A stretch of DNA of 64,000 nucleotides from the NCBI RefSeq assembly GCF_000442275.2, contig NZ_KE557314.1, positions 465,085 to 529,084 of the forward strand, given 5' to 3'. This DNA comes from Litoreibacter arenae DSM 19593. Its GTDB lineage: Bacteria > Pseudomonadota > Alphaproteobacteria > Rhodobacterales > Rhodobacteraceae. The notes beneath the pieces were generated by a model. The model was not told where the DNA came from. It worked only from the letters and a program-made list of their open reading frames with translations, and did no database searches. Positions 7,212-8,360 of this stretch are shown here, piece after piece (positions within the stretch are counted from its first letter, which is position 1; each line of letters begins with the position of its first letter). Both the position numbers and the translations under genes were made by a program.

Positions 7212-7838
7212 ATGACACGTCTCCTCCCCGGCATCCTTGCCATGGCCACCGTCGTGGTCGCCTCCAACATCCTTGTGCAATTCCTGTTCGGCAACTGGCT
7301 GACATGGGGCGCATTCACCTACCCGATCGCCTTTCTGGTGACCGATGTGATGAACCGCGTCTACGGCCCAAAAGCCGCACGGCATGTTGTTTTTGCTGGC
7401 TTTTTCGTGGGTATCGCCTGCTCCCTCATCGGCTCGCAAATCATGCTGGAATACGGCCCCGCCGTGCCCCTTCGCATCGCCGTGGCCTCCGCCATCGCGT
7501 TTTTGACTGCACAACTATTAGATGTGTCCATCTTCGACCGTCTGCGTCAGGGCGCTTGGTGGAAAGCCCCGCTGGCCTCGACCCTCATCGGCTCCATCGT
7601 GGACACCGCGCTGTTTTTCACCATCGCATTCTCGGCGTCCATCACGCTCTTTGGCGCGGGAAATGACGCAGCAATTTCATGGGCTTGGGAGAGCGTGCCG
7701 CTACTCGGACAAGGCCAAGCCCTGCCGCTCTGGGTCTCGCTTGCCATCGCCGACTGGTCGGTGAAACTGGCCGTAGCCCTGCTCGCGCTGATCCCCTTCC
7801 GCATGATCGTCACGAAACTTTCGCATCGGTCTGCGTAA
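7212..7838 (+). CDS. yhhQ: Queuosine precursor transporter (YhhQ / VUT family)
   Basis: A 208-residue inner-membrane protein with about six hydrophobic helices. The start MTRLLPGILAMATVVVASNI at 7212, the segment TYPIAFLVTDVMNRVYGP with its conserved TD near the second helix, and the later LLDVSIFDRLR fit the YhhQ/COG1738 family, which imports queuine-pathway precursors such as preQ0/preQ1 for tRNA modification. An in-frame upstream start at 7161 adds a proline-rich 17-residue tail and is less likely. I see no preQ1 riboswitch-like structure upstream. The structured RNA unit follows 54 bases after the stop on the same strand. Confidence 0.78.
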   Translation: MTRLLPGILAMATVVVASNILVQFLFGNWLTWGAFTYPIAFLVTDVMNRVYGPKAARHVVFAGFFVGIACSLIGSQIMLEYGPAVPLRIAVASAIAFLTAQLLDVSIFDRLRQGAWWKAPLASTLIGSIVDTALFFTIAFSASITLFGAGNDAAISWAWESVPLLGQGQALPLWVSLAIADWSVKLAVALLALIPFRMIVTKLSHRSA

Positions 7839-7907
7839 AAAACTCTTGCTTTGAACACAAGATGTGGCACCCTCCAAGGTAACAGCAACCAGAGAAAGGA
7901 GGTGTCC

Positions 7908-7964
7908 ATGTCTAGAGTGATATTGGAGCGAGGTGTCAGGCAAGGTACGGAGGTGCGTGTCTAG
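7908..7964 (+). CDS. 18-residue ORF with an extended Shine-Dalgarno sequence
   Basis: ATG at 7908 to TAG at 7964 encodes MSRVILERGVRQGTEVRV. The ribosome-binding sequence AGAAAGGAGGTG matches the anti-Shine-Dalgarno end of 16S rRNA over 12 bases with a 3-base gap to ATG (5 bases from the GGAGG core). This is far stronger than at neighbouring genes. The peptide is basic with no membrane segment. It may be a leader peptide, a regulatory target or only a ribosome-binding decoy; I do not recognise it. Confidence 0.5.
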   Translation: MSRVILERGVRQGTEVRV

Positions 7965-8030
7965 GGGCAGCCCCCTAACCCACACCGAGGTATCGGGTCA
8001 CACCATCTGACCCACCTCCATCAGATCTCG

Positions 8031-8065
8031 GAAAGGGCGCCCCTGCTGTGGGCGCCCTTTCTTTT
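8031..8065 (+). terminator. Rho-independent terminator of the small RNA unit
   Basis: Perfect 12-base stem GAAAGGGCGCCC (8031-8042) / GGGCGCCCTTTC (8050-8061) with a 7-base loop, followed by TTTT. Confidence 0.9.
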
Positions 8066-8108
8066 AAGCGTCGCTAGTCACAAAACCGCAGATGTGCTAC
8101 TGTCAGTT

Positions 8109-8360
8109 ATGGAAAAAACGAAGCTCACCATTGCACCCGATCTGGTCGTAGACCCCAACATCTCGGTCGAGCCGATGATGCAGGTCAAACGTGATGGCGG
8201 CGACTGGGAATACCTGTCCGACACCATCCACGGCTTCACCCATGAACCCGGCGTAGAGGCCGAGGTGGAGGTCGAGATAACCTCCGACCCGAACCCGCCC
8301 CCCGGCGCATCCAGCCTTCGCTATGACCTTGTCAGGGTGATTTCCAAACAGCCGCGCTGA
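8109..8360 (+). CDS. DUF4377-like small protein
   Basis: An 83-residue protein from the ATG at 8109; an in-frame ATG at 8094 would add five residues. The pattern MMQVKRDGGDWEYLSDTI-H-GFTHEPGVEAEVEVEI, then PPPGASSLRYDLVRVISK, follows the DUF4377 layout, in which a beta-rich domain contains a GF-x-EPG turn and ends in S-x-RY-x-LVRV-x-SK. DUF4377 proteins are often envelope lipoproteins, but this one has no signal peptide. Function is unknown. It stands alone, followed by its own terminator. Confidence 0.65.
   Translation: MEKTKLTIAPDLVVDPNISVEPMMQVKRDGGDWEYLSDTIHGFTHEPGVEAEVEVEITSDPNPPPGASSLRYDLVRVISKQPR

Follow-up and report, generated by a model that had tools for sequence, protein, structure and literature searches.

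A conserved putative small RNA gene of the Rhodobacterales with an 18-codon open reading frame and a predicted Shine-Dalgarno lock

Organization and occurrence of the locus

The window, that is, the whole stretch of 64,000 nucleotides of Litoreibacter arenae DSM 19593 DNA that was analysed, contains what appears to be a small-gene unit at positions 7880-8065. The unit comprises a putative promoter, a 12-base complement to the 16S rRNA 3' end, which serves as an extended Shine-Dalgarno sequence (SD), an 18-codon open reading frame (ORF) and a strong terminator hairpin. It is separated by 54 bases from the stop codon of the upstream gene, Vut_1 (VUT), whose product presumably has a queuosine-precursor role. 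The features were assigned as follows.

7212-7838, + strand: Vut_1 gene (PF02592; Pfam E-value 9.7e-30), putative vitamin uptake transporter, upstream neighbour
7846-7851, + strand: candidate -35 element, TTGCTT in the window (TTGACA in most relatives), placed by conservation; the window copy matches at 4/6 positions
7868-7873, + strand: candidate -10 element CACCCT with TGn before it, placed by CAnnnT, which is kept 16 bp after the -35 element in relatives
7893-7904, + strand: extended SD AGAAAGGAGGTG, complementary to the 16S rRNA 3' end (duplex with the 16S tail, -26.1 kcal/mol)
7905-7927, + strand: start-codon hairpin P0 (7905-7912 with 7919-7927), from the minimum-energy fold (MFE) and the covariation alignment
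7908-7964, + strand: 18-codon ORF MSRVILERGVRQGTEVRV with ATG at 7908 and a TAG stop at 7962-7964
7944-7994, + strand: stem P1 (7944-7948 with 7990-7994) around P2, from the MFE and the covariation alignment
7962-7967 with 7972-7977, + strand: stop-codon hairpin P2, inside P1, from the MFE and the covariation alignment
8013-8019, + strand: anti-SD CACCTCC, predicted partner of 7898-7904, from the motif count and the RNAalifold consensus pair
8030-8065, + strand: intrinsic terminator, a hairpin at 8030-8062 (-26.4 kcal/mol) followed by the tail TTTCTTTT
8109-8360, + strand: gene for a DUF4377 small protein, downstream neighbour, by domain call

At other same-genus loci, the sequence found 3' of the unit differs from the DUF4377 gene of the window.

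An earlier sequence-only reading had described two copies of GGAGGTG followed by an exact complement. Both copies (7898 and 7949) and CACCTCC at 8013-8019 were confirmed, and AGAAAGGAGGTG from 7893 was found to be a single copy in the whole window, both strands counted. Patterns for the 16S 3' end gave no match in the window's own assembly; one of nine genomes matched, namely the same-genus genome G003, whose 16S rRNA ends in CTGGATCACCTCCTTTCT. Therefore, the perfect 12-base complementarity that had been claimed is confirmed for that genome.

The best match to TTGACA was 6/6 in 53 of 71 loci and 5/6 in a further 14, compared with 0.9 and 13.7 of 71 in shuffled upstream DNA. Judged by its letters, the window promoter is a poor consensus match (TTGCTT, CACCCT), weaker than those of the relatives. 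A simple consensus scan of 7700-8200 with a strict TATAAT listed no promoter and no terminator; the promoter is therefore proposed on the basis of conservation. The strong terminator of the earlier reading held up through its hairpin and tail, although the scan did not list it. It was also found that TTATNCACA, which we take to be the DnaA-box consensus, occurred in the promoter region (75 bases upstream) of 17 of 21 same-genus sequences (L001-L021), and TTATCCACA in nine. In the family-wide set, TTATNCACA was present in 5 of 72 rows only, and the window carries TTTGAACACA.

The occurrence of the unit was studied with a covariance model of its body, built from 40 sequences from which the SD and start region had been removed beforehand. 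The model matched 163 of 198 family genomes, with one copy per matched genome and a single exception. A gene so widespread in the family bears a place-holder name at most, or none. A 236-base DNA query matched 20/20 same-genus genomes and 45/101 overall, including the window's own genome, certain of the weakest matches spanning the terminator end only; a pattern scan of GTDB contigs gave at least 119 loci. Among the matches listed (80 titles), the labels were Rhodobacteraceae, Paracoccaceae, member genera (Cereibacter, Paracoccus, Thioclava, Rhodobacter, Litoreibacter and others) or broader. A plasmid search with one relative's locus gave no match, and no known Rhodobacter sphaeroides sRNA was identified at the corresponding place.

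Of 149 loci, 140 had VUT upstream of the unit, in most cases 54-91 bases from the SD, and VUT was also present in 4/4 further family loci. For six of the nine remaining loci, less than 200 bases of upstream sequence were available, and three (L019, L114 and L132) lack VUT. Outside the family, no VUT link was found in the loci examined. On the 3' side, the sequence past the terminator differs even inside the genus, certain sister genomes having it in common, and no neighbour recurring between families outside the Rhodobacterales was seen in 17 loci inspected by eye. With its short ORF and, further on, its alternative helices and terminator, the unit resembles a leader or attenuator controlling a downstream gene. 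However, an attenuator or leader peptide would call for a conserved gene downstream, and the variability described above disfavours this explanation, which is considered hardly probable.

Constraints on the 18-codon ORF

The 18-codon ORF noted in the earlier reading proved to be a nearly constant feature: of 152 loci, 149 had an ORF of precisely 18 codons. One further locus was dropped from this set as cut, and some genomes are present in it twice. The remaining three ORFs had 17, 20 and 22 codons. All three stop codons were in use (TGA 71, TAG 47, TAA 34). Among the 117 unique 18-codon ORFs, no in-frame stop occurred within codons 11-18, whereas the other frames contained stops in 13/117 and 6/117.

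The synonymous share of changes was compared with that in permuted data. For codons 2-10 it was 0.40 vs 0.28 ± 0.06 (7/300 permutations reached it), whereas for codons 11-18 it was 0.34 vs 0.32 (90/300), with no amino-acid constraint; for codons 2-18 together, the excess was weak (0.35 vs 0.31; 30/300). Codon 2 encoded serine in 116/117 unique ORFs, each of the four TCN codons being represented, and codon 3 was AGA, likewise in 116/117. The near-invariance of codon 3 points to a constraint at the RNA level as well.

Considering the stop and synonymous-change statistics, the frame and length of the ORF are conserved, whereas the peptide is unconstrained in its second half. These comparisons support selection on the tiny ORF to be translated, and translation seems to be more important than the peptide. 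The data on codons 2-10, together with the conserved serine and AGA, could also be explained if the RNA were simply the mRNA of a functional 18-residue peptide and its structure did no more than tune expression. However, the lack of amino-acid constraint in codons 11-18 argues against this explanation, which is regarded as unlikely.

Folding of the RNA and the SD/anti-SD pairing

The 7893-8075 RNA folded with -79.9 kcal/mol, compared with a mean of -64.5 ± 4.3 kcal/mol in dinucleotide shuffles (z = -3.57; 1/200 folded as well). In the lowest-energy fold, 8013-8019 was paired with the SD at 7898-7904, and CCCACCTCCA was not a hairpin loop. In the earlier reading, the anti-SD had been placed in the loop of a separate hairpin around CCCACCTCCA; this was not borne out, since the partner kept in relatives is the SD.

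The consensus fold of 72 non-redundant sequences contained the SD paired with CA[CU]CUCC, P0, a short P3 and P1, the 5' arm of which lies within the ORF; P2 was added afterwards on the basis of the covariation list and the fold of the window unit. In the whole structure (72 rows), 90.3% of cells were paired, compared with 40-53% in slid controls. Double-change cells numbered 116 vs 34.8 ± 5.9 in shuffles (0/500 reached this number) and 10-46 in slid controls. They were located mostly in P1, with two-sided changes at 6/6 aligned pairs and 88.4% of cells paired, and in P2, with two-sided changes at 6/7 pairs yet only 73.5% of cells paired. P2 is loose, as two of its seven pairs were unformed in 39/72 rows. 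For P0, 97.7% of cells were paired across the 72 relatives. Thus, the check by covariation in relatives that the earlier reading had proposed came out in favour of a structured RNA with a body recurring through the family, whereas the third hairpin it had drawn (ATCTGA/TCAGAT) was not kept in relatives.

In the SD/anti-SD helix, five of seven pairs were invariant and two had one-sided changes only. The pairing in 72/72 rows is partly by construction, the rows having been picked for carrying the motif. Because of this selection and the near-invariance of the helix, covariation gives no proof of the lock, and the evidence for it is the motif count. In 151 loci unselected for the motif, C[AG][CT]CTCC occurred in 143 vs 14.7 expected from simple shuffles, and a longer form, with CTCG following, in 141 vs 3.3. 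Comparison of these sequences indicates that the SD/anti-SD lock is conserved and that the third hairpin of the sequence-only reading is not.

The accessibility of the SD was then computed for growing prefixes of the 72 sequences. It was 0.56-0.59 up to 25 bases before the end of the anti-SD, 0.39 two bases before it, 0.06 at the end and 0.02 three bases later. In the full-length RNA it was 0.04, and shuffling of the downstream sequence raised it to 0.31. Similar values were obtained for the 151 unselected loci (some genomes twice): 0.57 at 75 bases and 0.06 at 150 bases, where the accessibility was below 0.2 in 132/151 and above 0.3 in 13/151. The model therefore predicts that the SD/anti-SD lock closes the ribosome-binding site in the full RNA, in line with the self-sequestering suggested earlier. 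As a whole, the earlier interpretation is partly supported.

When a ribosome-sized footprint was forced to be single-stranded, the mean predicted exposure of the anti-SD rose from 0.02 to 0.26; for the window unit, the corresponding values were 0.00 and 0.41. The anti-SD pairs in cis with -13.8 kcal/mol in the window; considering that the 16S tail binds the SD region with -26.1 kcal/mol, a ribosome arriving first should keep the SD, as far as duplex energies can tell. Since CCUCC-type seeds act in alphaproteobacterial sRNAs, a trans-acting sRNA that blocks the SDs of other mRNAs via CACCUCC, the ORF being a switch that frees the seed, has to be weighed. The partial release of the seed upon ribosome occupancy and the resemblance of the unit to a standalone gene speak for such an sRNA, but in the free RNA its seed would be almost wholly paired (0.02 unpaired), and this explanation is considered improbable.

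Relation to CC2171 RNA and the proposed mode of action

CC2171 is reportedly a Caulobacter sRNA, said to have been described by Landt et al. in 2008, and the Rfam type of its family (RF01867) is 'Gene; sRNA'. The RF01867 model gave a full-length but weak match to window 7886-8058 (26.6 bits, E 4.5e-4), far under the gathering cut-off of 75; at the gathering level, Rfam had no match in the window or in five relatives' loci, and the window element is not filed under RF01867. The window and RF01867 have in common a 5' module of a CAAC leader, GAAAGGAGGUGAUCC and an (A/G)UGUC start, so that in both, CAAC..GAAAGGAGGUGAUCCAGUGUC is followed by a short ORF, but past the start no body similarity was detectable. 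In the window's genus, the module is two bases shorter (GGTG--TCC). In the RF01867 consensus, a GUG follows the extended SD, and a length-limited ORF is preserved at the related loci. A family typed by Rfam as an sRNA appears to be related to RNAs with a constrained ORF.

A search of 385 genomes of the class with RF01867 gave matches in 95 at E up to 0.01, 13 of them above the cut-off; the window's own genome was absent from the matches. Among 14 control genomes, Caulobacter and Deinobacterium matched, one above the cut-off, and weak RF01867 matches alone are therefore no proof. The 5' module (AAAGGAGGTG-like SD, start codon, usually TC next) with a short ORF was found in 69 of 70 loci read, L217 having none. 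A 20-base pattern of the module occurred in 78/385 class genomes, never more than once per genome (reversed control, 0), and, in a phylum sample, in 70/398 genomes, all 70 of them Alphaproteobacteria with one copy at most. At two loci, L186 and L255, ORFs of 55 and 56 codons followed the 5' module, and their proteins look signal-peptide-bearing.

A single module per genome would also suit a decoy that ties up 30S subunits or the 16S 3' end and in which the ORF plays no part, as would the complementarity of relatives to the 16S tail, which reaches 18 bases (-33.6 kcal/mol for L022 with the G003 tail). However, a decoy would need neither a fixed stop place nor a limit on ORF length, yet both are kept, and this explanation is very unlikely. 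In the loci of the class outside the family, the ORF had 18-30 codons in 89% of 89 unique sequences vs 20% in shuffles; their Met-Ser start is partly imposed by the search pattern and model. Past the first residues, the peptides of different class groups are unlike one another (e.g. MSHCHxPR..., MSS[DE]...EQP...), and this wide divergence further weakens the case for an mRNA of a functional peptide.

The body model R1 detected none of 86 non-family alphaproteobacterial loci at E up to 10 and 4/4 family loci in the same search. A class-wide SD lock was rejected: in 92 other alphaproteobacterial loci, SD accessibility was 0.31-0.32 vs 0.25-0.28 after shuffling, and the wider gene must therefore have a function other than the lock. 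In 91 such loci, exact CACCTCC was not found (0.9 expected), which also counts against an sRNA acting through this motif, and GGATCACC was likewise found in none, with no enrichment. RCCTC was enriched about 76 bases from the SD (55/91 vs 31.8 ± 4.1). Another motif seen in the other Alphaproteobacteria was ATGGA[AG], at a median of 127 bases past the SD (32/91 vs 4.7 ± 1.7 in shuffles) and often directly before a terminator-like hairpin.

Of the 35 family genomes without the body, 20 were examined. The strict module pattern was found in two and VUT in 16. In 8 of these 16, a module starting with AAAGGAGGTG lay 50-80 bases past VUT, which is the place of the window element; in the other eight no module was seen, although for one of them only 175 bases were available. 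Four of the eight post-VUT modules were read and had ORFs of 18-25 codons and no window-type body. L287 was a fifth module-bearing body-less locus, with no VUT in the available stretch. A short form of the module, AAAGGAGGTGCC[AT]ATG, was seen after VUT in the body-less family loci L289, L290, L292 and L294. By sequence comparison, the window element is a Rhodobacterales form whose 5' module is also that of an RNA gene of the Alphaproteobacteria to which Rfam CC2171 belongs; the two are likely of common descent, with the body replaced or rapidly changed.

As far as the literature was searched, a window-type element as a coding RNA was not found in print. The mentions of RF01867 found were Rfam 15 and a Mesorhizobium huakuii paper, whose available table gives MH_s33 as RF01867 in a 215-base region; the name CC2171 was not found in the main text, as available, of a Caulobacter ribosome-profiling paper (PMC4117421).

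The unit is probably an independent RNA gene of about 185 bases, the ORF of which is translated during synthesis, after which the SD is locked by the anti-SD. Its product would most likely be a small mRNA or a dual-function RNA translated mainly while being made. RNA polymerase would start near 7880 at the sigma-70-type promoter and stop near 8065 at the terminator. The extended SD would emerge first, largely open, and capture a 30S subunit, so that the ORF could be translated while the remaining RNA is made. CACCTCC would emerge about 115 bases later, pair with any unoccupied SD and shut the RNA to new ribosomes, a closure predicted by folding and backed by motif conservation. Because the anti-SD emerges late, each transcript would be translated within a short window after synthesis. 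Selection would then act on translation as such (start, frame, length and stop) and on the first ten codons, and would leave the peptide's second half unconstrained. A ribosome on the SD would partly free the anti-SD, and contact of the latter with other messages is only a possibility. If real, the lock would be a compact natural case in which translation is restricted to the period of transcription and would allow a direct test, in the cell, of the competition between a 16S-tail complement and an internal anti-SD.

A bolder reading, held to be improbable, is that of a class-wide single-copy RNA gene that senses ribosome availability through its near-perfect 16S-tail complement, with its own anti-SD in the Rhodobacterales. 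The tiny ORF would be translated whenever free 30S subunits arrive; the rhodobacterial anti-SD would compete with the ribosome, and the folded state, stability or trans activity of the RNA would report ribosome supply. In that case, what Rfam lists as an sRNA family would act as a translation sensor throughout the class.

The proposed small mRNA or dual-function RNA can be compared with several known systems. Pos19 of R. sphaeroides, a 219 nt sRNA with a 150-nt ORF and an RpoE promoter, is an sRNA gene of the same order containing a translated small ORF; according to the available text, it is absent outside R. sphaeroides strains (PMC5036791). The same text names CcsR1-4 of R. sphaeroides (PMC5036791). 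They resemble the window unit as rhodobacterial RNAs with an anti-SD-like element, which is a loop in CcsR, but the window unit occurs as one copy behind VUT and has an ORF of its own. CcsR1-4 presumably carry CCUCC-type loops in several homologous copies behind a DUF1127 gene. The rnTrpL/peTrpL RNA of Sinorhizobium meliloti contains a tiny ORF, the peptide of which is able to act in trans, as stated in the available text (PMC7298713). No trp-type operon lies downstream of the window unit, which distinguishes it from rnTrpL. The latter RNA reportedly also acts in trans itself and is said to originate from the trp attenuator. In structured type I toxin mRNAs such as AapA1 and Hok, the SD of a small ORF is closed by long-range 3' pairing, and the window SD is similarly predicted to be closed by the 3' part. 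However, the window peptide is not hydrophobic but, by inspection, charged and polar, and the window unit occurs in most family genomes, nearly always single. The sole family genome of 198 with two body-model matches was G940 (C41 and C19).
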